From NCBI GenBank assembly GCA_029532415.1, contig JAQOTA010000047.1, forward strand, positions 2,294,001 through 2,358,000: a stretch of 64,000 nucleotides of DNA, written 5' to 3'. Position 1 is the stretch's first letter. Every line of letters begins with the position of its first letter. Below the pieces are notes generated by a model, which was not told the DNA's origin, did not search any database, and saw only the letters and a list, made by a program, of their open reading frames with translations. Source of the stretch: Marasmius tenuissimus (lineage: Eukaryota > Basidiomycota > Agaricomycetes > Agaricales > Marasmiaceae). The position numbers and the translations under genes were made by a program. Below, piece after piece: positions 6,923 to 63,826 of this stretch.

Positions 6923-7603
6923 CTGGCTATTGTATTCCTTAGGTGTTGTATATTTGATTTCGTTTCCTCTCTCCCTTTCTTTCCCTTCTCTCTCCCCTCT
7001 ATTATAGAACTGTTGTATTTATAATCTTTCATTTGCATTTGCATTTCACCTCGTCTTTCGTTCTGCAGCTGTTTATTCGTTCATTGCATTGCTCTCTTCT
7101 GCTTCAGACTTATTTGTTTTTCTGATTTCTCTGTCTCGTTCGTAACACTAATAGCGTTGAACCAAATCACCTGTACCTGTATCTCTACACAGACGCCTAC
7201 CACAGTTTATGCACCATTTTGTGAAGGATTGAAGATCGATTTTGGTGGAGATCATGGCGTAAGGAAAATTGCCCGGAACCACCCATTTGCAGTCAATGAT
7301 GCTTGGGCTATCGCTCTTGAAATTATCGTCAATCGACACGACTTTATTTTCGCGACATTTCCGTGTACTTCTCGCATCGAGTCCACAGTCGATTACGACT
7401 ACGCAGTAGACATGCGTTCAAGTCAAGTGAGTTATGTAAGCCTCGCCGCTCGAGCCTACACCACCACAAGTACTCTAGTATGTGAACGATCTTCGTTCTA
7501 GTTACAGACAGGCACTGACTTGGACTTGCTTTACATTCTACAGACTCCTGTGTCATCCAATATCACTGTTGATAAGAAATCTCCAGCAGTTCTCATTCAA
7601 AGG
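6923..7603. other. Intergenic region: 3' UTR and F-box gene 2 leader
   Basis: After the PH gene the sequence is T/C-rich and then carries short frames without conserved content. The stretch 7500-7603 reads in frame with the next F-box gene but lacks an ATG, so it is treated as leader. Confidence 0.5.
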
Positions 7604-9313
7604 ATGGATAACCTTGGATCAGGACCTGAGCCTGTGACTCTGAGTCATCCGAAGACCTGTCAGGAGTGCTATTTTGACATTGAATCCTTCCGAGATCGGT
7701 TCAGAGAACCCTCGGCTCAGATGTACGCGACTTACGCTGGAGGGAACGCGTATCCACCTTTGGAGATAGAAACGGCCTATCGAGCAGAGATAGTGGGGGC
7801 AAACGCGCAGATGTTCTCAATAGATGACAAGCTTGAGCGTCTGGAGCTGATGGTATCTATGTTGAAGCAGGAGAGGGTTAGGATGGTTGGTATCATTGGG
7901 AAATACCGGCGGATGCTGCGCCCAATCCACAAGCTACCGCCTGAACTTTTGACGAGGATTTTCCTGTTCTCCGTGGACAAATCGGACGTACACAACTACA
8001 CAAGCCTCCCTGTCCAGCTCCCGTCTTCCTTAAACCCTTCTCAGCACCCTTGGGCGCTGTCTCAAGTTTGTCGATCGTGGCGGAAGCTTGCATTAAGTGC
8101 TCCAGCTCTATGGTCTTCCCTCTCGTTCGCCTTAAGCTACCCTGGCAAAGGTGACTCCTCGCCGAAATTCCTATATTCTCAATGTTTTCGCATGCAACTC
8201 CAGCTCAGCCACTGTGGAGATCACCCCGTAGATGTCGTCACCTCAAATCCTCACCCGATCTCCTCCATGATGGAACTATTCCTCCTACCCCTATGTTTCC
8301 ATTCCTCTAAGTGGAGACACTTGCGCATTGACTTGGACAGCCAAAGGCTTTTGCCGCGAATGGCTTCCATCACAGGTCGACTTCAGTCGTTGGCGTCTTT
8401 GCACATAAGACTTATTGGATCAGTACCCTCGGACTTCGATTGCTTTCAGTTTGCTCCACAGCTCGAGACGCTCGCCCTTTCGGTTGACCCCAGTATCGTC
8501 GACATCGGGCTCGCGGACATTGGCCGACTGAAACTACCCTATCGCCAAATAACCCGATATCGCTGGTTTGATGAAGATTGTGGCGGCGCGATCGAATCAC
8601 AGCGCTCCCATCTACGCTCATTGATGTGCCGTACCCTTTGCCTTCTTCCTAATCTCAGGTTCTGTCAACTATCTCTCCGTCTGGGTGGGTCCAGCATTAA
8701 CTCACCGCTATTTCGAACGAGAGTAACTCTCAAGCACTTGATCGAATTAGATCTCGTATTCGGTGATGCTCAGGCGAGGGCCTTTCCTATTCTCCCCCTT
8801 TTGATAGCTCCCTCGCTCAGAAAGCTAACCATCTCCTCATCTGGAACTCACCATTCCTCCATCTCCACAATCCTCATAAATCCCCAGATTTTGACTTTCC
8901 TTTGGGTTGGACGTGTTGAGATCCGTCCGAACGATTTTCACGCCCTTCTTGCTTCCCTCAAGTCTTTGGAAGACCTCTCATTCGGCGTATTGGGCGGGAT
9001 AACAGGCGGCTATCTGACCTTGTTCCGCCCCACGAATCTGGATACCGGCGACTTTGTGATCGTTCCCAATCTCCAGAACTTGGCCCTACTTCCCGTCGCA
9101 GGCTCCGAATCGACGTATAGCGAGGATACCCTTACATCCATTTTGGAGGCTAGACACAGAGGTGCGGTACAACCGGATTCTCGTGATTCCACAGAGCCTC
9201 CGAACAACAGACGTCTGGTTTCCGTGGTGCTAGACAGGCCAGTAAAACACGAACGTCTAGATTCACTTCGTGCCGGAGGCCTGTCGGTAAGTGTGTGGAA
9301 GAGTCCAGCTTAG
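7604..9313 (+). CDS. F-box/LRR-like protein, paralogue 2 (single exon, 569 aa)
   Basis: I start at the ATG at 7604; the open frame reaches further upstream only through a TTG. Residues 19-30 hold the family N-terminal motif CQECYFDIE. A predicted helical segment follows, then the F-box at about 107-165 (LRPIHKLPPELLTRIF, later VCRSWRKLALSAPALW). The remaining ~400 residues look LRR-like and match the partial copy at 3-1151 closely. F-box proteins bind Skp1 and present substrates to a cullin-1 ubiquitin ligase; the substrate is unknown. No introns are needed in the coding part. It is the best complete reference copy for the family in this window. Confidence 0.88.
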   Translation: MDNLGSGPEPVTLSHPKTCQECYFDIESFRDRFREPSAQMYATYAGGNAYPPLEIETAYRAEIVGANAQMFSIDDKLERLELMVSMLKQERVRMVGIIGKYRRMLRPIHKLPPELLTRIFLFSVDKSDVHNYTSLPVQLPSSLNPSQHPWALSQVCRSWRKLALSAPALWSSLSFALSYPGKGDSSPKFLYSQCFRMQLQLSHCGDHPVDVVTSNPHPISSMMELFLLPLCFHSSKWRHLRIDLDSQRLLPRMASITGRLQSLASLHIRLIGSVPSDFDCFQFAPQLETLALSVDPSIVDIGLADIGRLKLPYRQITRYRWFDEDCGGAIESQRSHLRSLMCRTLCLLPNLRFCQLSLRLGGSSINSPLFRTRVTLKHLIELDLVFGDAQARAFPILPLLIAPSLRKLTISSSGTHHSSISTILINPQILTFLWVGRVEIRPNDFHALLASLKSLEDLSFGVLGGITGGYLTLFRPTNLDTGDFVIVPNLQNLALLPVAGSESTYSEDTLTSILEARHRGAVQPDSRDSTEPPNNRRLVSVVLDRPVKHERLDSLRAGGLSVSVWKSPA

Positions 9314-10617: not shown

Positions 10618-11201
10618 TCAATCCTAAGGCCACCGTCATTCAACAATCCATAGACCACCAAAGGTGGACAAACTCACGTCTCTTTTGATCCAAATCTTAT
10701 AGTCGTCCCGGTTGTCGACCTCGTTCTATGGGTACAGATCAGTTGTGCCTCTTGAGATTATCTCGAAGATGTTTGATCGAATTACCTCCCTCTTGAACCA
10801 AGTTTTATTGTCGTCCCGGTTGTCCACCTCGTTCTGGAGGTATCAGTCAGTCTCGTCAACTCTAAACGAAGAGATCGTTAGGAAAGACGAATCGCTCACC
10901 TCCGGGTCTCTCTTGATCCAGATCTTGTAGTCGTCTCGGTTGTCGACCTCATTCTAGAGGTCGGATACGATTATTTGGGTTTGCCACGTCGATTCCGAGA
11001 AAACTGAGGTTCTCACCTCTGGGGTCCTCTTGATCCAAATCTTGTAATCGTCTCTGTTGTCGACTTCGTTCTCCTACAGTAAGTGCGCATCGTCAGGACG
11101 TTTCCCATGTGCTGCAGGTGGCTACTTACGGCAACAGGAGCCGCTAGGACACCGGCAGTGAGAGTGGCGATGAAGAGAATAAAGGCGGAAGTGGCGCGCA
11201 T
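10618..11201 (-). CDS. Secreted repeat-peptide precursor with Kex2 (KR) sites (six exons, ~93 aa)
   Basis: Complement(join(10618..10623, 10678..10725, 10786..10833, 10900..10953, 11017..11073, 11130..11201)). Exon 1 encodes a 24-residue secretion signal ending ...GVLAAPVA. Exons 2-5 each encode one repeat: NEVDNRDDYKIWIKR in exons 2, 3 and 5, and NEVDNRDDNKTWFKR in exon 4. They are linked by short TPE, DPE or E spacers, and the last exon adds Asp and a stop. All five introns (54-66 nt, GT...AG) are phase 0. Every repeat ends in Lys-Arg, the Kex2 cleavage site, predicting release of 13-16-residue peptides ending in IWI or TWF. Exons 2, 3 and 5 differ only at synonymous positions. The closest known concepts are KEX2-processed repeat proteins and fungal RiPP precursors of the epichloecyclin/ustiloxin kind; no homologue is recognised. 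A frame-blind alternative (plain ORFs) gives only exon 1. Confidence 0.8.
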
Positions 11202-11270: not shown

Positions 11271-11278
11271 CCTTTATA
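11271..11278 (-). promoter_or_regulatory. TATA box of the repeat-peptide gene
   Basis: On the minus strand this reads GTATAAAG, 70 nt upstream of the ATG at 11201, a normal spacing for a fungal TATA promoter with a short leader. Confidence 0.55.
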
Positions 11279-12388: not shown

Positions 12389-13607
12389 TCAATTGGCCGT
12401 ATAATCAGGCGGAAGACTGACAACCTCCGTCGACGGGGAGCTCGCAGTAATACTAGACTGTTCCGCCACTCTCCCGGACCCCGATCCTTCCTGCGTCGTC
12501 CCTCTCGAGCTTCTCGAGCCCCCCGCCCCCTTCCTTCCCATGCCTACTCTCGAAGACCTCGTCCGATTGACGCGATCTCCCCTCCACCCGCTATCAGTAT
12601 GTTTACGTTCCACCGTGCGGGCTCGTCGCGGTGCTTTGCTACCGACTACCGTTTCTTGATCGTCCGAGTCAGATGACGAAGTGGATGAGAAAGATATAAA
12701 TGAAGTAGAAACCGGACGCTGGCGTGTCCTCGTTGACGAGGAACGGTGCTTTCGTGCTTCGGGTGGGAACCTAGAAGAAGTAGGAGAGGAATCGGTAGTC
12801 GAATATGCGAATGGGTGATGATGAGTATCAGATGTTGGGGAATAAGGATCGGTTGTAGGAGATGTGGGTAAGTCTGATATTGAGGAACGAGGGTAACGAT
12901 ATAAAGGAAACGGCGTGAGAATACTGGGGGTCGGTGTCGTTGTGAGGTCCACATTCATAGTCATGGGTGTGTGGTCAGATGACGCATCCAATGGTACGAC
13001 GTGAGCTCCTCGTTGACGTTGTAGGCGACGGTGGCGGCGACATGTGCAGAAGAGAACGGCGCCAAACAAGAGCACGAGGGCCACGACAGCGATGACAACG
13101 CCCAAAACGATAGTTTGGGGGACGCGTTTAGAAGACGATGAAGATGCTGTGGATGGATCGGCTGTTGATGAACTTTGGACTGTCTTTATTTCAATAGTAG
13201 TGGATGTAACGATTTTGCTACGAGGAATATGGGCGGGCGGTCAGACTAGTGGCAGCTTTGGAGGGTACGATAACTCACGTCGTCGTCGTGATGGGGTTTG
13301 GCATAAGAACGTCTCTGTCGTCTCGTTTATCCCTTCCATGTCCGCGATAATTTTCAGCGAGACCTGGCAAATCTTGCATTGCTTTCCCGATACCGACGGA
13401 TCGCTGCGGTCGTCGAACTTGCATTTCAGTCATCGCGAGATTCGTGGTGCATAGAGAAAGGGTTGAGGGAACGGGGAGCACGGGAGGCGGGAGGAAAGAT
13501 GGGTAGTGCTGTCGTTGTGATTCTCCCCAGGGGTCTGGTCTCAAATAATTAATGTCTTGTGATCGTCGACCGATTTGGGTGACATGAAGGGACCACCACG
13601 ACGCCAT
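12389..13607 (-). CDS. Single-pass membrane protein with Thr/Ser-rich ectodomain (function unknown)
   Basis: Complement(join(12389..13217, 13279..13607)). The 61-nt intron at 13218-13278 joins ...NPITTTT to KIVTSTTIEIKTV in frame. A Thr/Ser-rich stretch follows, then a hydrophobic segment (TIVLGVVIAVVALVLLFGAV) and a stop-transfer CTCRRHRRLQRQR. The ~220-residue cytoplasmic tail is rich in Ser, Pro and Arg and probably disordered. The layout resembles fungal Mid2/Wsc-like or mucin-like surface proteins, but no Cys-rich domain is seen. The start is uncertain: the ATG at 13607 is used because it is the first in frame, yet no clear signal peptide precedes the ectodomain, so a further 5' exon may be missing. 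Confidence 0.5.
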
Positions 13608-14955: not shown

Positions 14956-15133
14956 TCAAACTCGGCAGGTGATTCAAGTGAAGATATTTATCACCTTCAT
15001 ATCCACAACTCAAAGGAAAAACATTTTGATTGTTCCTGGATCGACACGGGCTACTTTCGGTCTGAGACTCACTTCCACCTTCTTCCGCTGACAGGCGTAT
15101 ACCGAGTTTCAGCCATGTCCATCAAGTGAATGA

Positions 15134-15140
15134 GTATAAA
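15134..15140 (+). promoter_or_regulatory. TATA box upstream of the secreted Thr-rich gene
   Basis: GTATAAA lies 70 nt before the ATG at 15210. This supports a real promoter for the small secreted protein that follows. Confidence 0.45.
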
Positions 15141-15209
15141 GAAACATTCCCAATTTTGGCCTTCCTCCAGTGGAGAGCTCCCCCGAGGTCTGAGAAAATT
15201 CGAATTACC

Positions 15210-15636
15210 ATGAAGTTCATCAGCCTCCTCGCCCTCTTTGTCGTCCCGTCGCTTGCTGTAAGCACTTCACCACATTCAAACGTTTCACACGTTAACATCC
15301 ATTCAGTCTCCCCAATTCTGAACCACAAACGCGCTAGGAGATGCTGGAACCACTACATGTATCACTTGGACATTCCCCGATGGATCCGTGACGACCTATA
15401 CCGCTGCAGGCGAGTCGGGAACCACAAAAGCAACCACAACAAAGACTTCTCCGATAGTTACGTGCTCCTGTCCACCCCGTCCGACGGTGACGAAGATAGT
15501 GTATACGTCTGTCTTACCGGGAGGTACCATAACTCATGCGCCGACTACTAGCACGACTACGGATCCGTGTGCGGGATGTGGGGTTCCGATTACGACAACC
15601 ATTTATGTTGGGCCACCAAAGGCGACTACAGCTTAG
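15210..15636 (+). pseudogene. Small secreted Thr-rich protein, possibly broken in exon 2
   Basis: Exon 1 (15210-15257) encodes a 16-residue signal peptide (MKFISLLALFVVPSLA) followed by a good GTAAGC donor. The expected acceptor TTCAG at 15306 enters exon 2 in a frame that meets TGA at 15319-15321. Beyond that stop, the same frame continues as a coherent Thr-rich secreted domain with cysteines (AGTTTCITWTFPDGSVTTYT, later VTCSCPPRPTVTK and DPCAGCGVPITTT), ending with TAG at 15634-15636. Either the gene is disabled by one nonsense codon or the splice site is non-canonical. It could be a small cell-wall or effector-like protein; no family is recognised. Confidence 0.4.
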
Positions 15637-15639
15637 TAT

Positions 15640-16407
15640 GTAGATGGCGAGAGCAAAAGTCGAGCTAGACGTGGCTTACTTGTGGCCAAAGAGTGGGCTG
15701 TTTGGTTGTTCAGAAACGATATTTTGGGTCGTTCGAGAATGATTGGAAAGGATAATTCGAGAAGTTCATATTATGTTCTCGGTTCGCAAATCCGGCGGCC
15801 TTGCCAATTCGTTCAAGTTGACAGCAAAGTTAGCTTTGTCGGATTGTCGTTCGAGCTTAGAGTGTTCGAACCAACCACCCTTCGAACAAATGAGAGTGTC
15901 GAGTACAGAGGAGTCGATCAACTCGGTCAAGTAGAACCAACGGGTTGGCTTCCTTGTGTCTTCATAGCCTGTTCAGTGGTCAAGTATTCTATGAGTAATA
16001 GGTCCATCGACTCCGCCAGATTGAAGGAGCGAATTTGGATTTTTTGTGTCCCAGTGTTGTCCAATGATCGAACGATATTGAGAGGTCGGGCGCAAGTACC
16101 AGTAGGGTATTGTCATTCATATTCCCATCAAAACAGCAAAATAACGAAACCCAACTCGACACTTGTGTTTTGAACGTTCACTGTATGCTTGAGAGAGCGC
16201 TCCCGAAACGTGGGCACATGTGCCATGGAGGTTATGACGGAGACAGGTAAGGCCGAATAAGCGCCCGTCGCGTTCTTTTCAACCACCACCAGTAAACGAC
16301 ACAGGTAAATGTTATTGCCATTTTTCGGTCGCTTAATTCACTTTCCCTCCTTTTTCTGTATACCAGAGCTCTTAGAGACAGATATAAACGGCTTCTCCTC
16401 AGTACGA
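15640..16407. other. Intergenic region before F-box gene 3
   Basis: Short frames only. The stretch 16309-16407 is in frame with the F-box gene but carries no ATG-led conserved residues and is treated as leader. Confidence 0.4.
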
Positions 16408-18105
16408 ATGGCCCCTTCAAAGTCAGCTTGCCCCACTTGTTACTATGACTTGCAAGCGTCTCAAGGCAGAATTCGCGGTCCCTCGGATCATCTTTACAAC
16501 CAGTTCTCGGATAAGAACGTGTATCCATCGCTGCAAGAGGAGATGGTGATCAAATCGGGATTATCAGAGGCGAACGCGCAGATGGCGTTGATAGCTGAGA
16601 AGATCACTGGCATGCAGGAAAGGTTAGGTCTACTGGTGAAAGAGAAGATGAGGATAAGAGAAATTATTGGAAGATATCGGACCATGCTACGCCCAATTCA
16701 TCAGCTTTCACCAGAGATTCTGGCGAGGGTCTTCTCGTTCTCCGTGGATGCTCCGACTGTCAACTTGACCGAAGGATTTCGAGTGCAACCCCCTTCCTCC
16801 TTGGATCCATCCAAACATCCTTGGGCTTTATCCCAAGTGTGTCGATCATGGCGTAGACTTGTGCTCAACACGGCCAACTTGTGGTCATTCGTATCTTTCG
16901 CCTTCCCTTACGATGAACACAGCGCGGCCTTACGGTCACAGTGCTACCGATTGGATTCGCAGCTCAAACGTTCTGCCAGTCGTCCTGTTGAAATCATAAT
17001 CCCCGCTCCCAACCCTTTTCCTTGTTCCATTGAGCGTGTTATTTCCCTTCTGTGCTCTCATTCGCCTCGCTGGAGGCTTCTCCGAATCGACCTACAGGAC
17101 GATACGTTCGCGTCCTGGATGTCTTCCATCCGGGGTCAGCTTCAGTCGCTAGAATCACTGCAAATCAGGTTCTCTTCGGAGCTCATCGAGAAATTCGATT
17201 GCTTTGGATCTGCTCCGCTGTTGAATAGCCTCGTAGGCTCATTGGACGAGGGAAGAGTCCCCCAACATCCCCGGTTCTGGCACCCCCGAAAGCTCAGCTT
17301 ACCATACTCCCAGATCGCGAGTTTCTGCTGGCAAAGTGCGACGGGGTCTTCTTCGGTCTCTGCGCGGAGGCTGTCGATCCTCCACTGCCACTCTTTGATT
17401 CGACTCCTTCGCCATCTCAAATACTGCCGTCTCGAACTGCGGCGTGAGACCATTACTCAATATGGCGAGATGCAAAGTACCGAATTGTTCACTAGCGGCC
17501 AGCTGAAACTGCCGCTCGAGCACCTTGTTGAGTTGGACATCCGCGGGTTCGATGCATGGGCTGGAGCGGGGGCCATACTCCTTCACTTCGAGTTAACCCA
17601 ACCCTCATTGGAGAGACTGTCCATCTTTTCCTCGGGACCCGACCGGACGGCACTCTCCAAACTCCTAAGTCATCCCCAAAGGTTGACGCACCTTTCTATC
17701 TCTCACCTTGAGATGGCCGCAGACGAGTTCTCCGCTGTCTTACTCTCCCTCGAGTCTTTAAGAAATCTTTCATTCGGGGCCAGGAACGGGATAAGTGATA
17801 ATGATTTGCTCATATTTAGTTCTATCACACCCGAAACCAACAATTTTACTATCGTCCCGCATCTGGAGAACCTATCCCTCCTTCATATACCCAACCAAAC
17901 ATCAATCTACAGTGACAATACCCTACTTAACGTACTGGAAAGTAGACGGCGGGCCCCGGTCGAGGGTACGGGTGCATCATCTTACTCGCAGTTACTCTCT
18001 ATTACGCTTGACAAGGGATTGGCGAGTGATTGGGCGATCGAAAGGGTGGAGCAGCTTCGCGCTGGGGGACTCCGAGTTGGCCTCCGGGGAGGGCCGGCAC
18101 GCTGA
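16408..18105 (+). CDS. F-box/LRR-like protein, paralogue 3 (565 aa)
   Basis: The ATG at 16408 (MAPSKSACPTCYYDLQ) puts the conserved CxxC-x-(F/Y)-D motif at the N-terminus as in the other copies. A helical, probably coiled-coil segment (EKITGMQERLGLLVKEKMRI) precedes the F-box at about residues 95-155 (LRPIHQLSPEILARVF, then VCRSWRRLVLNTANLW). The C-terminal 400 residues are LRR-like and end in RLRAGGLRV-type family residues. It is an intact single coding exon. The 3' flank to about 18500 is duplicated near 22.5-23.05 kb, showing that this gene took part in a segmental duplication with the copy at 23136-24856. The likely role is an SCF substrate adaptor, target unknown. Confidence 0.87.
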   Translation: MAPSKSACPTCYYDLQASQGRIRGPSDHLYNQFSDKNVYPSLQEEMVIKSGLSEANAQMALIAEKITGMQERLGLLVKEKMRIREIIGRYRTMLRPIHQLSPEILARVFSFSVDAPTVNLTEGFRVQPPSSLDPSKHPWALSQVCRSWRRLVLNTANLWSFVSFAFPYDEHSAALRSQCYRLDSQLKRSASRPVEIIIPAPNPFPCSIERVISLLCSHSPRWRLLRIDLQDDTFASWMSSIRGQLQSLESLQIRFSSELIEKFDCFGSAPLLNSLVGSLDEGRVPQHPRFWHPRKLSLPYSQIASFCWQSATGSSSVSARRLSILHCHSLIRLLRHLKYCRLELRRETITQYGEMQSTELFTSGQLKLPLEHLVELDIRGFDAWAGAGAILLHFELTQPSLERLSIFSSGPDRTALSKLLSHPQRLTHLSISHLEMAADEFSAVLLSLESLRNLSFGARNGISDNDLLIFSSITPETNNFTIVPHLENLSLLHIPNQTSIYSDNTLLNVLESRRRAPVEGTGASSYSQLLSITLDKGLASDWAIERVEQLRAGGLRVGLRGGPAR

Positions 18106-19220: not shown

Positions 19221-21670
19221 ATGATCACGATCACGTTCAAACAGCTCCTCTCCTCTGTCCTTTTCGTTGTTATGTATGCGTCTCAAAGTCGTGCTGCATT
19301 GAGCTCCGCCGACTCCGAGCACGCCGCAAGCGACCTACCGGGCCTGGGCGATACCTTCCGCCCTACCACTAGTTACGAGGTTCTTCAAGTCTCGATTTAT
19401 GGGTCATCGTGCGATAGTTGACTTCGTAATTATCTAGACCTTTGGTGAAGGCCTCAACCTCCCGACATTGCTTAGTGGTAGCCTCGGCATCAATGATGAT
19501 GCCGTTTCCTTCATGTCCTCGAAGTTGGAGGTGGATCTTTCGAGCGTGGCTTTCAAGTCTGGTTACACCACCAAAGACGGGGTGACCTACGGATATGCTC
19601 GACAATCTCATGTCAGTTTCTGGTTCTCGTATCCAACAGAATTAGTAATCAACGCTGTCCAGAATGGCATCCCTTTCATCAACTCCGTTGCAAACGTTGC
19701 ATTCAAGAGTAACAAGGTCGTTGCGTTTGGCTCTTCCTTCGTACCGGTTGCCGACGGTATGTACCATCCAGAGACTGGTAGCGACTATGCTCATAATCTC
19801 CGGCCTCTCAGACAAGATAGCGGGTTCTACGCCTACTGTCGCGCTCAACGCCGCCGTTTTGAAGGCCGAAGAGATCCTTCAAGGCAAGAAGAACGAAATT
19901 AAGCCCACTCTCGGATATTTTTCTCGCGAGGATGGCTCGATCTCTCTCGTTCACGTCTTTCAGGTTCAGAACGAGGAGGGTAGTCACTGGTATGAGGCCT
20001 ACGTCGATGCTCACACCGGCGAGCTGGTTTCGGCGACTTCTTTCGTTGCTCATGCCGCTGTGAGTGTGAATCCTCTCAAATGTGTATATCAATGCGTTGA
20101 CGGAGAATCAGTACAAAGTTCTTCCCATTTGGAAGCAAGATTTTTTCGAAGGACTTGAGATTTTGACTGACCCTCAGAATTTGACTTCTGCCTCTCCTAT
20201 TGGATGGCACTCCGGTTCTGGAACAACTACCGAGTCAATTCGTCCCTGTAATGAGGCCTGACGAGATGCTAAATCGTGATATTGAGCAGGGGTAACAACG
20301 CAATGTCCTTCAAGCAATTTTGGTCCGATACGACGTCTCAGTCAAGCAGTGGACAAGTCTTCGACTATCCCTATGATCCCGCTCAGGCACCTACCGCTGG
20401 ATCCAACCTAGATGCCGCTCGAACCAATGCATTCTACATTGGAAACACCTTTCACGACGTTCTCTATCTCTATGGCTTCACTGAAGCGGCCTTCAACTTC
20501 CAGAACGATAATTTTGGTAAAGGAGGCGTCGGCAATGATTCTGTTCGCATCACAGTTCATGATACTGTCCGAGGTACAAACGATGCAGCCTTCGGTACTG
20601 GGCCTGAGTTCGTCTTCTCGAGCTTTCTTGATTAGTCTGGAAGTTGAACAGCATCTAATAGTGGCCAGCATCCAGTGTGCATCCTGCTTTTTTGGACTTT
20701 CACAGATGTGAGTCTGTTTCGCTTTCCGACCAACTCCGGTCACACCATACTCACTCATGCCTCTACATAGCCTTTCCGTGACGGCGCTATGCAAAACGAT
20801 ATTCTGATTCACGAGTTTGCTCATGGCCTAACCAACCGAATGACTGGAGGTGGTACTGCCACTTGCTTAAATGCGATGGAGTCAGAAGGGATGGGTGAGG
20901 GGTGGAGTGATGTTCTCGCCGAGTAGGAGGTCGTTTTCATTTAACCCGTGAACAATAGCTCATGAATCACGTCGGCTCACTCAACACAGCTGGTTCTCGC
21001 ACACAGACACCCAAATAGTCTCTGACTTTATACTGGGTCGCTGGGTTACCAACAGCTCCGAAGGAATACGCACATACCCTTACTCCACGTCCGCTATCAC
21101 CAACCCTCTGCGGTACGCTGACCTTGCTACGTTGGACGAAGTGCACAGTAACAGTTCTTGTCTTACTCAATTACATTCACGAATCTGACCTTTGTTAAAT
21201 AGGAATAGGCGAGGTGAGGTATTACCTGAGTTAGAGAAGTCCTCTTTGGGAGTCTTAACGATCTATTTTCTCCCTCTGCTACTTGCGGTTGTAGGTTTGG
21301 TGAGTGTATCAGAATTCCGGCCTTTTGCCGTGCTCACATCTGTCTCGTTTCCGAATTTCCCAGGGCTAACATGCTCCACAACGTCTACGCCCAACTTGTC
21401 TTGACCCACGGGTGGTCGGGCTCCGCTCGCACCGACTCCACTGGTACCCTTGGGAATGTCGTATTCCTCAACATCGTCGTCCAAGGTCTAGCGCTCCAGC
21501 CCTGTAACCCAACCTTCCCCCAGGCTCGCGACGCCATCATTCAGGCCGACAACAATCTCTACGGTGGTACTCATAAGTGCTTACTGTGGAATACCTTCGC
21601 GAGCAGGGGACTCGGTATCGGTGCGACTGGCCACGTCGATTCGACTGAGGTGCCCTTGGAGTGCAAGTAG
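19221..21670 (+). CDS. Fungalysin (M36 extracellular metalloprotease), copy 1
   Basis: Join(19221..19379, 19438..19611, 19663..19756, 19812..20059, 20112..20233, 20290..20607, 20662..20707, 20771..20922, 20990..21147, 21203..21213, 21295..21299, 21364..21670) gives 597 aa with every phase consistent. A signal peptide ([20 protein letters not shown]) is followed by the FTP/propeptide region ([11 protein letters not shown] marks its end) and then the peptidase domain. The zinc site is HEFAH at about residue 401, followed by [11 protein letters not shown], which supplies the glutamate ligand. Secreted fungalysins cleave proteins and self-process their propeptide. Two exons are tiny: 11 nt (21203-21213) and 5 nt (21295-21299), encoding the IGEVW turn. 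The exon structure matches copy 2 at 28215-30701 exactly. It appears intact. Confidence 0.9.
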
Positions 21671-23135: not shown

Positions 23136-24856
23136 ATGAACATGGATGAAGCCGTTGGAACTGAAGCGACAAATTCAACTGCATCGGCAACGTGTTCAAA
23201 TTTTGACCATCAGTCTGACATCAATGATTCGCAACTCCCTCGGACTTCTAATGGCATATCATTCGTCAATTTCTTGAACGATGACACGTATCCGTCGCTG
23301 GTAAGAGTAGTGAGTAGATCAGATAGTATAAGTGAATGTGCTGACACACGTTGACTCACCTACAGGCAACAATGGAAGAAACAGAAAGTGTGCAGACGCA
23401 AGGAGTTGTCAAGGAGGATCATTGCATACCACGAACAATTCATCATCTGCCACTAGAGCTCTTGATGAAAATCTTTGCGCTCACTTTGGAGGCTCATATC
23501 CTCGAGTTCCGCTGGGAAGGATCTCGACGACGAGCGCCATCCTCCCTGGATCAGTCAACTCATCCGAACTGGGCACTATCTCAAGTGTGTCGGCTTTGGC
23601 GTGAAATCACGCTGAACATGCCCAGCCTATGGTCTTTCATAACGCTCGCCTTTCCTTCCAGCGAAGACTCTCCCACTTCGGCCAAGCTCCAAAAGTACCT
23701 CTTGGATTTGCAGCTCGAACGCGTTGCGAATCATCCCATCGACATCATTGCGGCTACTCCAGATCCATTCTCTTCACGTATCAAACGACCTCTCCTTCAG
23801 CTGTGCTCACGGTCTCCTATTTGGAGACGTATTTGCATCGAGCTATGGGGTGATCTATTTTGGCTATGGGGCGTTTCCATCCAGGGACGACTCCAGTCAT
23901 TAGAGTCATTGGATCTGAAGTTTATTCTGCCCATCACCAGAGATGTTTATTGTTTCCAATCTGCTCCGCAGCTGAAGAATCTCGCGTTTTCGGCTGGAGA
24001 ACTGGCTTTGCAACAGCTCTGGCATCCCAACAAGCTGAAGCTACCGTATTCCCAGATTACACATTTCTGCTGGAAAGACGAGACAGAGACAAAGTCCGAG
24101 TCAATGGACAATCAGGGATTATCGATATTGTTTTCGCATCGTGCACTTCTCCTACTCCAGAATCTCAAATACTGCCGACTCGAACTTCGTGGCGAAACCT
24201 TGTACCAGTACCGTCTCATACAAGCCAGAGACGCTTTCGTTATGAACCAGCTCAGAGTATCTTTTCAACACCTAGCTGAGCTGGAACTGGGCGGGGTGGA
24301 TGTTCAGAACGGGGCTGACGCCATCTTGGACTTTCTTGAGGTCAGCTCGTCGTTGGAACGCCTGAACATCTTTTCTTCAGGACTCGATCGAACCGCTCTA
24401 TCCAACTTCATAACGCATCCGAAGAACCTCCTTTGCCTCCGGATACCCAATGTCGAAATGCTCTCGAACGAGTTTTCGATTATCCTTCGATCCTTGACAT
24501 CATTGACAGACCTCACGTTCGGGGTGAGAGGTGGGATTACGGACGATTATCTGTCCCTATTTCTCCCCGACGAACTCAATGGCGACGGTTTTGCCGCCGT
24601 TCCGCATCTACAGAACTTATCGCTCCTCCCCGTTCCGCATTTCACGTCGACTTACAGTACAGATATCCTTCTCGATGTATTGGAAAGCAGACGGGAGTCC
24701 TCACCGACAGGCAACTCATTTGAGTCATCTCCATCGTCTTGTTCACGGCTACTCTCCGTGAATCTCGACAAGCAGTTAGATACTCCTCCAGCGCTGCAAC
24801 GATTGAGCCAACTCCAGATTGAAGGACTTCGGGTTGGACTATCATGGGAGAAATGA
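23136..24856 (+). CDS. F-box/LRR-like protein, paralogue 4 (two exons, 551 aa)
   Basis: Join(23136..23300, 23366..24856). Exon 1 (55 codons) corresponds to the family N-terminus, although the CxxC motif is eroded (TCSNFDHQSD). It ends with the conserved DDTYPSL, where paralogues have xNxYPSL. The 65-nt intron (GTAAGA...ACAG) replaces the helical segment present in the other copies, so this paralogue has a shorter linker. The F-box is at about residues 78-140 (IHHLPLELLMKIF, then VCRLWREITLNMPSLW). The LRR-like C-terminus is complete. Starting at the 23351 ATG would drop exon 1. Confidence 0.82.
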
Positions 24857-28214: not shown

Positions 28215-30701
28215 ATGGTCGTGTTGAAACAGTTGCTCCCCTCGGTTCTTCTCGCTGTTCTGTATGCATCTCAAACTCAAGCTGCACCGAGCCCCGTCGA
28301 CTCTGAGAACCTAACACGCGATGTGGCTGTGTTGAGCGATGCCTTCCAGCCAGGCACTAACTACGAGGTCCGTTAAGTTCAAATTTACTAACCATGCCTC
28401 TCAGGTTGACCTTGTGATTCTCTAGACATTTGGTGAAGGCCTCGATATCCCGGCATCGCTCGATGGCAATCTCGGCATCAACAATATAACTCTCTCCTTC
28501 ATGTCCTCGAAGCTGAATGTCGATCTCTCAAACATCGCCTTTAAGTCCGGTTATACCGCCGAAGACGGGGTGACCTACGGGTACGCTCAACAGTCTCATG
28601 TCAGTTCCTCATTGTCAGAATCAAGCCAGAGCCCCAGCACTGATTGAATCTGTTACAGGAAGGCATCCCTTTTGTCAACGCCGTTGCGAACGTCGCCTTC
28701 AAGAACAATAAGGTCGTCGCCTTCGGTTCTTCCTTCGTGCAAGTTGCCGATGGTATGCTTTATCCGGCGACTCGTAGCGAGTATACCTAACCTCTATGGT
28801 ATTGCAGGCGAGATAGCAGATTCCACTCCAACTGTCGAGCTCAGCGACGCTGTTTCAAAGGCCGAGGAGACACTTCAAGGCAAGATGAACGAGATAAAAC
28901 CTACTCTTGGGTATTTCGCTCGCGAGGGCGGCAACATCTCTCTTGTTCATGTCTTTCAAGTTCAGAACGTGGAGGGCAGTACCTGGTATGAGGCATACGT
29001 TGATGCTCATACCGGTGAACTGGTTTCAGCGACGTCTTTCGTCGCTCACGCTGCTGTGAGTGTGGTTCCTCAGCCCTTAGGTCTATTATCGGCTGACGTG
29101 TTTAATAGTACAAAGTTCTTCCAGTTTGGAAGCAAGATTTCCCTGAGGGACTCGAGGTCGTAGTCGACCCTCAGACATTGACTTCTGCTTCTCCCAACGG
29201 ATGGCACTCCGGCGCTGGGACAACAACCGAGTATGCTCATCTCTGTAATCAGACATGAAGAGATATTCAATCTTCACCTCGAACAGGGGTAACAACGTGG
29301 TGTCCTTCAAGGACGATCTGTCCGCTACAACATCTCAATCAAGCAGTGGTCAAGTCTTCAACTATACCTATGACCCCACTCAGGATCCCACCGTCGGATC
29401 TAATCTGGACGCTGCTCGAACTAACGCCTTCTACATTGCGAACTCGTACCACGATAGTCTGTACCTTTATGGCTTCACCGAAGCGGCGTTCAACTTCCAG
29501 AACGATAATTTTGGCAGGGGAGGCACCGGCAATGATGGTGTCCATATGAAAGTCCAAGACGCCACACACGGTACGGATAACGCATTCTTCGCTACTCCGG
29601 CTGAGTACGTTTCCTTGAGCTTTCCTTGTCATGATACTGCTAGAAACTGAATGGTATCTTACAGCGGCGAGCCTGGCATGTGCTACATGCTCCTTTGGAC
29701 TCAAACTAATGTGAGTCCGTGAGTCTGCTAGATAACCCACACTAACGTGCTCACTCGTATTCCTGTCGCCCCTTCCATGTACCATAGCCTTTCCGTGACG
29801 GGGCCATGCAAAATGACCTTCTGATCCACGAGCTTACTCACGGTCTAACAAACCGAATGACCGGAGGTGGTACTGCCACTTGCTTGAGTAGCACGGAGTC
29901 AGCAGGGTTGGGCGAAGGATGGAGTGATGCTCTCGCCGAGTAGGACATCATTTTGCTTTCATTACCCACAGACAACTTATCAATTGCGACGGCTCCCTCG
30001 ACACAGCTGGTTCTCCCACACAGACACACCGATAGTCTCTGATTTTAGACTTTTCCGCTGGGTCAGTGGCAACCCTAGCGGAAGCCGTAGATTCCCTTAC
30101 TCGACATCCACTACCACCAACCCTCTCCGGTACTCTGATCTTGCCACATTGTCGGAACCGCATGGTATGTTTTCACCATCCTTCACCATTGTCTCAAACC
30201 TGATCAATTGATTCTTAGAGGTCGGAGAGGTAAGATGAATGTACAACTTCGAGAGCATCCTTGTATCCTGACGGTCTGTGTCTCCCCTCATGATCCACCT
30301 TTCCAGGTCTGGTGAGTCTTTTGTTGACATTTTCGCTCTCGTCGGCCTTGCTAATCTTTCCTGCCCTATATAGGGCTAACATGTTGCACAACGTCTACGC
30401 TCAGCTCATTCTCAACCACGGGTGGTCTATTTCTGCTCGCACTAACCCCGCCGGTACCCTCGGGAACGTCGTCTTCCTTAACATCGTTGTCAAAGGATTG
30501 GCTCTCCAGCCCTGCAACCCAACCTTCCCTCAAGCCCGTGACGCCATAATCCAGGCCGATGTCAACCTATACGATGGTGCTCATAGGTGCTTGTTGTGGC
30601 GTACCTTCGCGAGCAAGGGTCTTGGCGTCGGTGCGACCGGCCATGTTGACTCGACTGAAGTGCCCCCGGAGTGCAAGTGTCTCTTGGTCTTGTGTCCATG
30701 A
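28215..30701 (+). CDS. Fungalysin (M36 extracellular metalloprotease), copy 2
   Basis: Join(28215..28367, 28426..28599, 28659..28752, 28808..29055, 29109..29230, 29287..29604, 29665..29710, 29788..29939, 30007..30164, 30219..30229, 30307..30311, 30374..30701) gives 602 aa. All 12 exons correspond one to one with copy 1, including the 11-nt and 5-nt microexons. The signal peptide is MVVLKQLLPSVLLAVLYA. The zinc motif is HELTH at about residue 399, with the ESAGLGEGWSD glutamate motif, so catalytic residues are present. It differs from copy 1 by a longer tail (ECKCLLVLCP) and many substitutions, suggesting functional divergence rather than recent copying. It is a secreted protease, probably made as a zymogen. 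Confidence 0.9.
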
Positions 30702-40597: not shown

Positions 40598-42435
40598 ATG
40601 CCGACGGCCCACGCATCAACGGTTTTGGAACCATACGCTTGCCTTGGATGTGGTCTATCCATTATCAACGACAAACAAGAGGATACGAGGGTGTCGAAGG
40701 CTACCATAGATGTGTTGCTGAAGTCCAATCATCCACCCCCACCTGTCAAAAAGCTCATTCTTCGTCAAGAATATGCCCAGGCCTCGAGAGACGATGCGTC
40801 TCTAAACTCGGCGATTGAACGGCTGAGGTTCAGCCTCAGGTTGCTGGAGCAGAGCCAAGTTGTGTCGGGAGCACGGGTACAGGACCTCAGGACAGTGTTG
40901 AGCCCCGTTCGATACTTGCCGAGCGAAATATTGGCAATGATCTTTCGGGATGCTGTTGATGAAGACACGAATCTGCCGTGCCTTTTTGGTGAGGTGCGAC
41001 ATGACCGCAATGCTTATCCATCCGTGACATTGGACACCACAAAGTCTCCTTGGACGTTGAGTCGGGTCTGCCGAAGGTGGAGGAACTTGGCCCTGGCCCT
41101 TCCTCAGCTCTGGAGTGTTCTCGACATCAATTGGGCACCAGCTCGGATGAGGAATGGGCGTTACCTTGCTTCAGTCAATATTCTAGGTATGGCAACTTCG
41201 GCCTAGCTAACCATTGCGCCTACCTGACCCTACACATTGTATGATATCATTATCCCTTTGCCCTACATTACTCATATACTCCTCCGTACTCCATAACCCT
41301 TTGCCTTACTGATCGTACTTACTCCTACGTACATCATGCACAGTTGGACCTACATCATGCACAGTACATTCTACTCCATTCTACCATATTCTAGCTATCT
41401 AGTACTCTTGTATATAAGCTAGCTAGAAATACTATTCTACCTCAGCAGTTTGTTACCAACACCGCATGAGGCATTCTGCCTACTGTCTTTTCTCTCCTGC
41501 TCCCTGCAGTATTGCAACTAGATCCCAGGAATCTTTTCAATCCTCTGCTCTAGATCGTTTCAGTGGAAAGAAGCGACTCCTCACACAGGGCTGGCTGGCC
41601 TGGAGGCACTCTCTCAATACACGGGAATGTTTCCCCACCTGTCGAAACTGGCATTCCACTTTGAAGAGGAAGAGGTTTGGGATGCTTTGGATGGGTCGAC
41701 AGGCTTGGATGTCAACACAACAATGCCCTTACGAACCTTGCAATCATATCATCTCTTCTTTTGGCATAGCTCCCATGGAAGATAATCACCCATTTCCACT
41801 GGAATTGTGTCTCTTCTTTCGCAGAAGTTGGTCAAGACTATTTTCTAGTACTCGCTCTCCTCAAGAACGTGCAGCATTACAGCCTGGAGGCTGTGCGGAT
41901 CACTTCCAACTCGCAGCTTGGGACCCCCCTCACACTATCTTCTCTGCATACCCTGGTGGTTGACGTTGTCAGCAATTCCATTGGAATTGAGCAGCTGCTA
42001 GATAGGTTAACACTGCCCACACTTTGAAGGCTCCAGAGCGCAGGGCCCTTTGAGGACTCGAGGGTGTTTCCTCAGTTCGCTTCTCGCTCAAATATTTGCC
42101 TGAAACACCTATCCTTCTGAAATGGGTTTCAAGAAAATGAGCAGCTGATTGGTTTACTCCAGATAAAACAACTGGATGGCTTACAGACATTGACTGTATG
42201 GGGATATGATAAAGACGGCCTTCGCCAGTGTGTTGACGGAGAGGTTATTGTTGCGTTGACCCTACCCTCTCCAGAGGAAATGAAGCGGCCTATTCTCCCT
42301 GGGCTGAGGAATCTAATCCTCGCAGGCATCCCCCATTTTACCAAACAGCAGCTACAAACACTCGTCAAATCTTGCTCATTGAATACGCGGAAATTTAAGT
42401 CCAGAGCCGTGTCTTGTTTGAGACTGCTTAAGATA
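40598..42435 (+). pseudogene. Second-type F-box/LRR-like gene, disrupted
   Basis: The ATG at 40598 opens an intact N-terminal part: a Cys pair (YACLGCG), KATIDVLLKSNHPPPP, a coiled coil, then the F-box (LRTVLSPVRYLPSEILAMIF, then VCRRWRNLALALPQLW). After LASVNIL the homology stops at about 41190 and resumes near 41545 (GLEALSQYTGMFPHLSKLAF) with several stops. LRR-like pieces run to about 42400 (LQTLTVWGYDKDGL, PGLRNLILAG). The 41190-41545 gap is AT-richer and may be an insertion. The gene is also interrupted at its 3' end by the MITE at 42436-43065. Confidence 0.7.
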
Positions 42436-59867: not shown

Positions 59868-61604
59868 TCAAAGTTCCAGAACCTGAAGTCCCTCCTCTCG
59901 AAGTCGATCCAGGCGTGCAATTGCCGATCTGTCCGCCAACCTCCGATCCAGATTAACTGAGCTCAGCCAGGGCCCTGATGAAGATGAATCAGAGGTCAAC
60001 TCATATATTCTCCATCGATCCTCCAACACGTTGACGAGCATTGCATCACTGTAAGACGACTCCGCGTTCAGAACGGGGAGAAGAGTCAAGTTCTGCAACC
60101 TGGGGACGACACGAACTCGACTTCTTTTCGATCCCTCGGGCGAATAGAACAAAATGAGGTCGTCGTTGCTTATCCCCTTGTCGACTCCGAACGCGAGATG
60201 CGTCAGAGACTTCAACTGTGCCAGGACCTCCAGGAACTCTTCCGACGGCATTTTTACTCGGTGGATGGTAAGGGAAGTCAATGGCTTGTCAGGTCGTGAG
60301 AGAAATCTCACAAGAGCCCGACAATCCGTTCCCGAAGTCGAGATTGTAAGCTTGTTCAGTGACGAAGCCACCATCGAGCATAGCACCTCGTCGACCTCAG
60401 TGCATTCGAGATCGTAGCCGTATAACTCGAGATCCGTCAGTCGATGCAATTGCGGCTTTGCGGCCCAAACGGGTACGTTGGACCTCAGACGGCGATAGGT
60501 AGAGACAGATCGTTGACTCAAGAATAAGGTGAGCCTTTCCAAGGCCACAAAGCGAGGAAGGAAAGCAATGAGTTGGAAGATGTCGCTGCCGTCGAGTCTA
60601 TCACTATCGTTATCATCAAAGTGGCACAAGTCGGTGATCTGACGAAAGGGAAGTTTCAGAGCACTCGACCAGCCGTGTTGCCCATCTCCAATCAAACCGT
60701 GAGCTCCTGATAGTATGAGCTTCTTCAACCGCGGTGCGAACTCAAGAAAATCCAGCTCCCCCTTGAAGCCCGTTCCAAGGCAGTGAATATCCAAGGACTC
60801 GAGCTCGGGGAGTAAGCCTCGAATGTGAGATAGCTCCTCGGCGACGGCATTATTGAGCTCAATTCGAAGGCTCCTCCAGCGATGCGTATGCGAGCACAAC
60901 AAAAAGAGTGATTGATCCAACAAGCTCATGGTATCCTCCGGCATGTGAGTGACGATCGTGAGTGGACGGTTCTGTGAGCGCTGAAGTTGAACGCGTAAAA
61001 GATGGTTGTGAGACCGCACTCTTGCGACAGATTCTGCGCCCGCAGTGCTATCAGCGCCCGGAAAGCCGAATGAAACGGACGACCACAAGTTCGGCGTAGC
61101 CAATGCAAGGTTCCGGAATGATTGACATACTTGTGCGACAGACCAGGGCGAGTGACGAGGGTTGATGGAAGAAAGGGGACGTTTCCGGTATCCCGATGAG
61201 GCGTACGTCTCGGGAATTTCTACGCAGAACGAAAATATTCTTGCGAGGAGCTTGGGCGGGAGACGGTGGATTGGACGAAGGATGCTTTGATACTTGGCCA
61301 TTACCTGATTGATACGGCCCTTCTCTGCCTCTAACGCATCTATTCTCTTTTTCAGGCGTGTTACAATGTCTGTTATGACCGACACCGTCGAGGTAGCCTT
61401 CTTCAAATCTGCCCTGATCGACCTCGCTTCCAGTGGCGATGGATACGTGTTTCTGTGCAAGTAATACTGGTAAAGGGTTTGAGAAGGTCCCCAGATTTCT
61501 TCTTGAGAGGTCTCGATGTCGAAAGTGGAACCTACGCATCCCCCAGGGCAGTGGATCACTCTGAGTTCCTTGTTGGCAGGGCTTGTCGGACTGGCATACG
61601 TCAT
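59868..61604 (-). CDS. F-box/LRR-like protein, paralogue 6 (578 aa)
   Basis: I start at ATG 61604 (MTYASPTSPANKELRV). The open frame upstream is a GTGAGT...CCCAG intron in the leader whose acceptor ends 4 nt before this ATG. The N-terminal block reads FDIETSQEEIWGPSQTLYQ with YLHRNTYPS; one of the usual cysteines is displaced. A coiled coil (VTRLKKRIDALEAEKGRI) leads to the F-box at about residue 110 (LRPIHRLPPKLLARIF, then VCQSFRNLALATPNLW). The LRR-like C-terminus is complete. It is the only F-box paralogue on the minus strand here and converges on pseudogene 5. Confidence 0.86.
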   Translation of the reverse strand: MTYASPTSPANKELRVIHCPGGCVGSTFDIETSQEEIWGPSQTLYQYYLHRNTYPSPLEARSIRADLKKATSTVSVITDIVTRLKKRIDALEAEKGRINQVMAKYQSILRPIHRLPPKLLARIFSFCVEIPETYASSGYRKRPLSSINPRHSPWSVAQVCQSFRNLALATPNLWSSVSFGFPGADSTAGAESVARVRSHNHLLRVQLQRSQNRPLTIVTHMPEDTMSLLDQSLFLLCSHTHRWRSLRIELNNAVAEELSHIRGLLPELESLDIHCLGTGFKGELDFLEFAPRLKKLILSGAHGLIGDGQHGWSSALKLPFRQITDLCHFDDNDSDRLDGSDIFQLIAFLPRFVALERLTLFLSQRSVSTYRRLRSNVPVWAAKPQLHRLTDLELYGYDLECTEVDEVLCSMVASSLNKLTISTSGTDCRALVRFLSRPDKPLTSLTIHRVKMPSEEFLEVLAQLKSLTHLAFGVDKGISNDDLILFYSPEGSKRSRVRVVPRLQNLTLLPVLNAESSYSDAMLVNVLEDRWRIYELTSDSSSSGPWLSSVNLDRRLADRSAIARLDRLREEGLQVLEL

Positions 61605-61639
61605 TATCTGGGCACAAAACCAAAGCCATGAGAAATATG

Positions 61640-62163
61640 AAGTGAAGATGACCGCAAAACTCACCTCGAGAGATTTTGTACCTTGTAGAGTCTTCAGTCG
61701 TCAGTTCGAGTTTGGTCGATGGTGAGCGTAAGAACCAAAGTATTCTTGAAGGATCCTCTTCAACACGAGGCGGCCGCGTTTCTTGGGTCTTCCCACGCCC
61801 GTTGAACTTGGCAATAAACTTGCCATCTCGATCAAAGGTCGATCTAGCAAGTGACCTGGAGTTGATTGAACAGAAATGAACGGGATTCTGTACCATTCCG
61901 ATTTGTAACTTTGTGAATCACCAGAGATCGTCACTATGGGCCCTGGCGGGCCGGAGCGCGGGGCTTGCTCCGAACCTACCGGAGTCAGGCGTTTTCCCAC
62001 CCTATCAATTTGTCTCAAACCATCACCATCGTGCCGCCCTCCAGAGTCAAAAACATATTAGTGCGTCTTTACAAACCCCTTCTAGCCACTCAGGCACTTA
62101 ACCAAGCTATCGCGCTTCATCGATTACCTCTAGCTGCAACTTACTCGACTCAGTTTAACGCCC
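61640..62163. other. Divergent promoter region between F-box genes 6 and 7
   Basis: The two F-box genes are transcribed away from each other across about 560 bp. The gene 6 side contains a leader intron; no other feature is recognised. Confidence 0.4.
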
Positions 62164-63826
62164 ATGGAACATCAGTGCGAGGACTGTAAATTCGATATCG
62201 AGTGCTCGCGCACAAAAATCCACGGACCTCTCGATGCCTTGTATCAACATCACCTTCGAAATAACGGCTATCCTCCACTAGATCAGGCCAACACTCGTAG
62301 CTGGATTGGATGCAGCAAAAGCACAATCAAGGCTTATCCACAGTACAATCGCACGCCTCCAAACGGTCATTGCATCGTTAGAAGGGGAGGACTCCCGAAT
62401 TACAGATATAATTGCGAGATACAGAACAATCATTCGCCCAGTTTACAAACTCCCGCCAGAACTACTTGCAAAAATCTTCCTCTTATCACTCGAACCCCCA
62501 GTAGTCCTGGAGAGTGCCATCGCCCGTACACATCCACCCCATTCGTTAGATACCTCAAAACTTCCCTGGCTCCTAGGATATGTGTGCAAGCTGTGGCGGC
62601 GCGTCGCCCTTGCGACTCCTGGTCTCTGGGCATCCGTATATTTTTCCTTTCGGGGCGGCGATGTAACCACCGCAGCTTCCCAAATTCATGCACATCGCCT
62701 ACGTCTGCAACTGCAACGTTCTGCGAATCATCCACTAACCGTCATCACATCCACACCTTTGGGCCTCCCCCCCATCGTCACCACTCCTATGGTGGTTCTT
62801 CTCACTTCTCATACAAATCATATAAAGCATTTGCGTATTGACCTGGACGGCAATAACATCCCAATCACCCACCTTTCTCAGGGCCTTTTCCAAGCACTCG
62901 AAACGCTAGATATTCGAATTATCGTACGCCGATCATCTTCCACGTTGGGGACCAACTCCGCCACCCTAGACTTTGCTGAGTTTGCTTCGCGTCTGAACAC
63001 ACTCATCTTGTCAGGGGATTTGAGTTACCTGAGACTCAAATTTCCCATCCTCCAGATCACCAGGTTCCACTGGTGCGACGACGAAAGTCCAACCAACTCA
63101 TTGCTCTCACATCTACGCAGTTTTCTTAGCAGCCTCTACAACCTCCAGAATTGTCGATTGTCATTTCATCCCCAAACGATAGCATCCTACCGTGCCACTC
63201 CTGTAGTCCCCGCGTTCGTTTTCAATACGATATCGAAGTTGACGTTTCCTCGCCTACAAGAATTGGAGCTAACATGCTCGACGTCAGAAAAGCCTGGTCC
63301 CAACAGGGGGATCTTGACCTGGATAACATCCTCCAACCTCACCTCTATGACTCTCTTTGCGTCAGGACAGGACCCGGCAATCTTCTCTACCCTCTTTCCG
63401 GACCCCCAGAGAATCGTCTACCTCGTCATACACCAAGTCGAAATGTCAGCAAGCAAGTTCACAGACGTTGTATCTAAGCTCACTTCATTGCAAACTCTCG
63501 GATTTGGGGTAGGGAATGGGATCACGGACGAATATATTTCCCCTCTGCAACTCACCCTTCACGAGTCCGAAACGTTTTGGGTCGCTCCAAAACTTCGGCG
63601 GCTATCTTTGCTCGCCACTCCCGATTTAATGTCCTTGTATTCCAACGAGAAAATTGTTGGGGTCTTGGAAACCAGGCGGCGGGAAGTCTCTGCTTCATCG
63701 GGGAACGCACAACTCGTTTCAGTTGTTCTCGATAGGAATGTTACGGACTGGTCGGCTGAGGAAAGGCTGAACCGTCTGATCAGCAATGGGTTGCGAGTAC
63801 AGGTGACGGAGGGAACAAGGAAGTAG
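62164..63826 (+). pseudogene. F-box/LRR-like paralogue 7 with a 1-nt frameshift
   Basis: The ATG at 62164 gives the best-preserved family N-terminus (MEHQCEDCKFDIECSRTKI, then HHLRNNGYPPLDQAN). The frame must then move by one base near 62290-62295 to continue as LVAGLDAAKAQSRL, a coiled coil (STIARLQTVIASLEGED), the F-box (IRPVYKLPPELLAKIF, VCKLWRRVALATPGLW) and a complete LRR-like part to TAG at 63824-63826. No intron can explain the shift. It is either a very young pseudogene, since the rest is intact, or an error of one base in the assembly. Confidence 0.8.

Follow-up and report, generated by a model that had tools for sequence, protein, structure and literature searches.

Does the minus strand of this stretch of DNA, between positions 10,618 and 11,201, encode a secreted precursor of several short peptides, or does it hold a repeat that is gene-like in looks only? 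The window, by which we mean the whole stretch of 64,000 nucleotides that was analyzed, comes from Marasmius tenuissimus, a member of the family Marasmiaceae. Six minus-strand exons and five introns had been placed at this locus in a first-pass annotation, and all of them were reproduced exactly, base for base.

Exon 1 (11130..11201, minus strand as for all parts of the gene, 72 nt) carries the start codon, a signal-peptide-like leader, MRATSAFILFIATLTAGVLA, and an APVA spacer. Exon 2 (11017..11073, 57 nt) encodes ENEVDNRDDYKIWI-KR-TP and then residue 1 (E) of copy 2; exon 3 (10900..10953, 54 nt) encodes NEVDNRDDYKIWI-KR-DP and then residue 1 (E) of copy 3; and exon 4 (10786..10833, 48 nt) encodes NEVDNRDDNKTWF-KR and then residue 1 (E) of copy 4. 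Exon 5 (10678..10725, 48 nt) contributes NEVDNRDDYKIWI-KR-D, and exon 6 (10618..10623, 6 nt) a single D and the stop codon (TGA). This last exon is the least certain of the six, because it is too short for a test by sequence alone. Since every exon length is a multiple of three, all five introns are in phase 0. They measure 54-66 nt, and each begins with GT and ends with AG. Intron 1 (11074..11129, 56 nt), which contains a branch-point-like CTGAC, would shift the frame if retained. The other four have lengths that are multiples of three and would each bring in an in-frame stop upon retention: intron 2 (10954..11016, 63 nt), intron 3 (10834..10899, 66 nt, with branch-point-like CTAAC and CTGAC/CTGAT), intron 4 (10726..10785, 60 nt, with branch-point-like CTGAT), and intron 5 (10624..10677, 54 nt). 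The branch-point-like sequence CTRAY is present in three of the five introns.

The spliced product is a protein of 94 residues, MRATSAFILFIATLTAGVLAAPVAENEVDNRDDYKIWIKRTPENEVDNRDDYKIWIKRDPENEVDNRDDNKTWFKRENEVDNRDDYKIWIKRDD, whose C-terminus is KRDD. Its translation bears out the earlier proposal of four near-identical repeats, each with KR after it, and three of the copies are identical. Every copy has its own phase-0 mini-exon, the junctions of copies 2-4 falling after the first core residue, and at the DNA level the repeat unit is one exon plus one intron, with a period of 108-120 bases. As judged by eye, the leader has a hydrophobic start and a small-residue cleavage site; it is a putative signal peptide, and its residues would place the cleavage after VLA. 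A TATA-box-like TATAAA (11273..11278, minus strand) lies 72 bases upstream of the start codon. A bacterial promoter scan, of a type unsuited to a fungus, returned nothing.

The rest of the window holds several other predicted genes. F-box-like proteins are encoded on the plus strand at 7502-9310, 23345-24853, and also 16309-18102 (two above the Pfam cut-off, one below), and the frames at 59868-61700 (minus strand) and 62282-63826 (plus strand) are similar to them by eye. A Ser/Thr-rich, probably single-pass membrane protein at 12392-13240 (minus strand) is weakly Psg1/Mid2-like, with both matches below cut-off. A possible small secreted protein at 15066-15551 (plus strand), which contains MKFISLLALFVVPSLAVS and a KRARR stretch, has no Pfam match. 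Two further plus-strand frames, at approximately 19438-20158 and 28648-29163, are similar to each other; the only Pfam match was PepSY, in the second frame and below cut-off, and the first had none. They are reminiscent of the propeptide region of M36 fungalysin metallopeptidases.

The repeats stand out from the background of the window. All six frames of the 64 kb were scanned for pairs of 14-residue segments with at least 11 of 14 positions identical, at most 600 bases apart and with at least seven different residues. The 31 matches all fell at this locus (some in other frames of the same DNA, including three antisense), and none was found in any of eight shuffled windows, in which a shuffle of two-base blocks kept dinucleotides only roughly. 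Repeats 1, 2, and 4 share one 16-residue translation but vary at nine nucleotide sites, all nine synonymously, against about 20% expected for single changes; the naive chance of this is approximately 5 in ten million, a figure to be read with the three identical copies having been chosen after they were seen. When all four repeats are taken together, 14 sites vary, 11 of them synonymously, and the three amino-acid-changing sites are all in repeat 3 (naive chance of at least 11 of 14 being synonymous, 4e-6). The introns, on the other hand, can hardly be aligned: compared with shuffles, nine of the ten intron pairs scored z values of at most 1.4 and the tenth 2.5. Synonymous-only differences between copies that are separated by such introns argue that it is the peptide, rather than the DNA, that has been kept.

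We then asked whether relatives of the gene exist. In the protein database, the precursor found no homolog among 366 candidates (proteins of approximately 52-164 residues, E up to 10), and the gene appears to have been missed by annotation. The search covered annotated proteins whose length is 0.55-1.75 times that of the query and which have 5-residue words in common with it, and among annotated proteins of similar length no relative was found outside this genome. A search of the M. tenuissimus genome itself (71 Mb, 70 contigs) with the precursor as a query returned four matches in the window gene and a fifth elsewhere on its contig, at a distance of 1.28 Mb (E = 0.037). This match led to a second gene, on the same strand (G000:C23:3588843-3589230), with four phase-0 exons of 75, 21, 63, and 42 nt and three GT-AG introns measuring 60, 68, and 59 nt. 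Its product reads, exon by exon, MFSFSTILLLVTYASSVFAAPIAAP, DVAVRSE, ENHVDAVDHWKVWIKREPEPE, and NEVDVVDHWKVWI followed by the stop codon. The first exon is signal-peptide-like, with AAPIAAP at its end, and the 21-nt second exon encodes only the DVAVRSE. The design is that of the window gene, with a diverged core, ENxVDxxDxxKxWI, in two copies: the internal one is followed by KR, and the last ends in WI directly before the stop, without KR. An EP-EP spacer of the STE13 type precedes the last copy, and a TATAAAA lies approximately 49 bases upstream of the start codon. Reciprocally, with the second precursor as the query, matches in the window gene had E values of 0.010 and 0.058. Neither precursor had a Pfam match above cut-off, and a structure database gave one match, at E = 1.3.

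Across both genes, E1, N2, V4, D5, D8, K11, and W13 of the core are invariant in all six copies (the E of four copies coming from the preceding exon). The pattern VDxxDxxKxW plus one residue occurs at eight places in the genome, six of which are the six repeats of the two genes; a reversed control gave one place. One of the remaining two has an in-frame stop, and the other, on contig 19, lacks the rest of the core. Other patterns yielded only candidates that were rejected. The pattern GACGAYTAYAARATHTGGATHAAR, with up to two mismatches, was found at five places, three in the window gene and two on contig 55; the latter are two similar copies of a stretch in which the matching frame is open for only about ten residues, and no second repeat was seen there. 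ENxVDxxD was found at 21 places (controls, 7), two of them being the two genes, and none of the other 19 continues like the core. The closest of these, ENSVDVVDHRK on contig 7, is antisense to what looks by eye like an F-box-like frame and has no preceding splice acceptor, and we judged it to be a chance match.

The second gene is not a recent segmental copy of the first: when 30 kb around it were compared with the window (frames of at least 25 residues, E up to 1e-3), nothing was common to the two regions except the repeats and a single further short match, which is far from both genes. This other match pairs window positions 41245-41419 with G000:C23:3601627-3602002 (three rows in overlapping frames, with 29-41 residues at 59-69% identity). 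Reading frames whose motifs look like those of a Ty1/copia-type retroelement lie at G000:C23:3574316-3579541, at a distance of about 9 kb from this gene's locus on the contig, that of the second gene.

A public protein model exists for the second gene. PM082_014959, a 65-aa hypothetical protein of Marasmius tenuissimus with a single repeat, was the only protein returned by the second precursor (four candidates) and by a two-sequence profile of both precursors (445 candidates). It is identical to our product over the first 53 residues, i.e., exons 1-3, the 21-nt exon included, and then continues through the third intron, so that the last repeat, NEVDVVDHWKVWI, is lost. Although it is itself a prediction by others, this model supports the mini-exons of the second gene. 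Its read-through of the intron is either an annotation error, by which the last repeat is lost, or a real intron-retention form.

These results bear on the opening question. If the locus were a decayed or never-translated repeat, its absence from the annotated proteins searched would be accounted for, but we would not expect differences between three copies to be synonymous only, nor five intact pairs of splice sites, an intact frame, and a conserved second gene; we therefore regard this reading as extremely unlikely. The locus has the structure of a gene and is conserved within its genome, and it is very likely a real protein-coding gene for a secreted, multi-copy precursor of linear, signaling-type peptides, that is, a KEX2-processed repeat protein (KEP) with a layout of the alpha-pheromone type.

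This assignment draws on the spacers as well as on the dibasic sites. KR, the dibasic KEX2 site between repeats, follows all four copies of the window gene, and dipeptides of the STE13 type, XA or XP, precede three of them: AP-VA before copy 1, TP before copy 2, and DP before copy 3, with none before copy 4. The STE13 signature is known in basidiomycete KEPs, and in alpha-pheromone precursors such dipeptides are described as being removed by STE13 (PMC6339444). These dipeptides, which went unremarked in the first reading, would explain the unequal distances between copies, and together with the KEX2 sites they make the alpha-pheromone-type layout the closest match as judged from the sequence. 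With the spacers trimmed, all four copies would share a single 14-residue register, ENEVDNRDDYKIWI.

We infer the following route from these features. A signal peptidase would cleave the precursor after VLA, and a KEX2 protease would cut after every KR in the Golgi. A KEX1-type carboxypeptidase would then take off the KR, and a STE13-type dipeptidyl aminopeptidase would take off AP-VA, TP, and DP. Copy 4 directly follows a KR (KR-ENEVDN) without a spacer and would require no trimming, so STE13 would act on only three of the four copies. The predicted products would be three molecules of ENEVDNRDDYKIWI (calculated monoisotopic mass 1807.84 Da) and one of ENEVDNRDDNKTWF. Acidic peptides of 13-16 residues with an aromatic C-terminus had been predicted earlier. 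Their acidic nature stands, the calculated charge being approximately -3; a single 14-residue register replaces the range of lengths; and the aromatic end applies to one product in four, since after removal of KR the C-terminus is Ile in three and Phe in the variant only, Trp being the penultimate residue. The second gene supports a mature C-terminus at Ile, since in its last copy a stop codon stands where the others have KR. As a counterpoint, the first copy of the second gene fits the route poorly: DVAVRSE would stay in front of it after the action of STE13 alone.

Candidate genes for KEX2-type and STE13-type proteases are present in the genome. Domain matches revealed KEX2-type genes at two places on contig 21, each with a P domain after the subtilase domain, and DPPIV_N genes, which are STE13-type candidates, on contigs 19 and 18. 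Two DPPIV_N genes (G000:C19:1395362-1396499 and 1406048-1407185) lie 10.7 kb apart with nearly equal scores, and this pair reflects either a recent tandem duplication or an assembly artefact. In other fungi, processing of KEPs by KEX2 and STE13-type enzymes was observed by mass spectrometry in Pichia and was inferred from detected peptides in Pleurotus (PMC9769878).

Cleavage at KR need not, however, define the active peptide. A repetitive secreted or surface protein could work uncut or as longer pieces, as with Rep1, whose 37-residue peptides have the hyphal wall as their site of action (PMC6339444), and repetitive fungal effectors such as Rsp3 exist (PMC5923269). Against this, KR has a constant position in all four copies, shared by the internal copy of the second gene, and is missing only where a stop codon takes its place; furthermore, the products of the window gene are short, acidic, and without cysteines. 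Given the strict placement of KR, we consider an uncut repeat protein highly improbable, and the preference remains for short linear peptides released by KEX2.

The locus had also been described as having the layout of both KEPs and fungal RiPP precursors. The KEP half of that description gained from the second gene, the conservation of the peptide, and the protease genes, while the RiPP half is not favored. In a dikaritin-type RiPP, cores freed by KEX2 would be cross-linked from Tyr to Ile by UstYa-type oxidases. The precursors of dikaritins (ustiloxin, phomopsin) and epichloecyclins (GigA) are likewise multi-core and secreted, with KEX2 sites, and the DDYKI of our core recalls EDYXI; RDDYKIWI fits the EDYXI-like motif of ustiloxins and phomopsins if D replaces E (PMC6339444). 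The genome has UstYa genes (at least 26 matched stretches), and 17 of 76 KEPs (22%) akin to putative basidiomycete pheromones are reported to lie near a DUF3328 (UstYa) gene, but for basidiomycetes overall the figure is 103 of 1680 KEP genes (PMC7329392). No UstYa (DUF3328) gene adjoins the window gene: an exon-by-exon search, which weak matches could escape, found none in the window, and the only match on the contig (C23:2488629) is 183 kb from the window gene and 1.1 Mb from the second gene. The residues to be cross-linked are not conserved among the copies either, as Y and I are replaced by N and T in repeat 3 and by W and V in the second gene. Because of this distance and of the missing Tyr/Ile pair, a cross-linked product is very unlikely, and an unmodified, linear peptide remains the preferred product.

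Among known systems, the closest are the KEPs of other mushrooms. In the pipeline of Le Marquer, a KEP requires at least three near-identical repeats (PMC6339444); the window gene has four, and the second gene, with two, is below this minimum. Mushroom KEPs of the STE13 type (Le Marquer et al. 2019, PMC6339444), including Pleurotus 1091723 and 1439342 (Vogt et al. 2022, PMC9769878), have a signal peptide, which is putative in the window precursor, and share with it the repeats ended by KEX2 sites and the XA/XP dipeptides, and the Pleurotus proteins, like the core described here, have Trp at or next to the C-terminus (SGVAADW; PMC9769878). The window core is, however, unrelated to theirs by eye, comprises 14 residues of acidic character that mostly end in WI, and has its own mini-exon for each copy. 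In ascomycete alpha-pheromone precursors, a signal peptide, again only putative in the window precursor, the KR sites, the STE13 dipeptides, and the short cores come in the order seen here (PMC6339444), but the cores are unrelated by eye to that of the window gene.

As for the function of the peptides, the most likely role would be to carry messages outside the cell, from hypha to hypha or between the fungus and what surrounds it, rather than one in mating; this is a guess by class. Basidiomycete mating pheromones have a C-terminal CaaX motif and are linked to STE3 receptor genes. The window precursor has no CaaX end, and STE3-type receptor matches were found on contigs 37, 10, 30, and 11 only, none being on contig 23, which holds both precursor genes; for these two reasons, a mating pheromone of this type is disfavored. 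A search of the genome for STE2-type receptors, run without a positive control, gave no match. Peptides derived from KEPs have been found by mass spectrometry in Pleurotus, Lentinula, and Coprinopsis, and knock-outs of six Coprinopsis KEP genes were described as having no visible phenotype (PMC9769878). In view of the latter result, a signaling role is unproved for this class of proteins in mushrooms.

The same kind of secreted peptide might instead be aimed at a host plant, a reading that differs in the addressee only. There are reports of M. tenuissimus in cacao thread blight (PMC11053350, PMC8581569), and peptides from KEPs can be directed at hosts, those characterized being mostly involved in biotic interactions (PMC9769878). 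No feature of the sequence points to a plant, however, and cultivated mushrooms that live as saprotrophs have KEPs of this design too (PMC9769878). It should also be noted that the identity of the strains from cacao thread blight is debated (PMC8581569, PMC11053350) and that West African strains named M. tenuissimus may be another species (PMC11053350). We therefore consider a host plant an unlikely addressee, and a message among hyphae or to the surroundings is retained as the preferred role.

The precursor had been called unrecognized in the first-pass annotation. This holds for the core and the gene (four core strings had no match in 5.39 million open-access papers) but not for the kind, as STE13-type KEPs have been described in mushrooms (PMC6339444, PMC7329392, PMC9769878). 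A new core alone is ordinary, since KEP cores are frequently unrelated to one another; of 7878 KEPs in one survey, 2560 stood alone, with no homolog (PMC7329392). What is new is the core family and, as far as we have seen, the allotment of a separate mini-exon to each peptide, the junctions coming after core residue 1; this less ordinary structure is a lead rather than a proven first. A literature search for exon-per-repeat precursors yielded no fitting case among the matches listed; surface proteins of glomeromycetes matched the search but did not fit. GigA may have introns among its repeats. In the part of PMC9233826 that deals with it, GigA is described without its exons. The word "exon" is absent from the main text of PMC6339444, PMC7329392, and PMC9769878 alike, and "intron" occurs zero, zero, and one times, respectively, the single instance being in a cloning method; the novelty of the exon structure is thus judged by the wording of three KEP papers, not by the gene structures of published KEPs.

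The exon structure has consequences for how such genes may evolve, be regulated, and be found. With one phase-0 mini-exon per copy, whole exons, and copies with them, could be gained or lost without a break of the frame. In the window gene, all introns but the first have lengths divisible by three and contain an in-frame stop, so that retention of one of them would give a protein with one to four copies and another tail. Two surveys of KEPs begin from predicted proteins (PMC6339444, PMC9769878) and would be expected to miss both genes, because no annotated protein was found for one and the public model of the other contains just one repeat. We offer, as a tentative and rather doubtful generalization, that mushrooms hold a class of exon-modular peptide precursors in which splicing could set the peptide dose; the class would be invisible to surveys of protein catalogs because gene callers lose the mini-exons. 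Both genes supply defined 14-residue peptides that can be sought in spectra of Marasmius cultures, with calculated monoisotopic masses of 1807.84, 1780.77, 1746.85, and 1766.86 Da. If losses of this kind are common, mushrooms secrete more peptides than present counts suggest, and a design with one exon per peptide would provide a simple handle with which to search for them in raw DNA.
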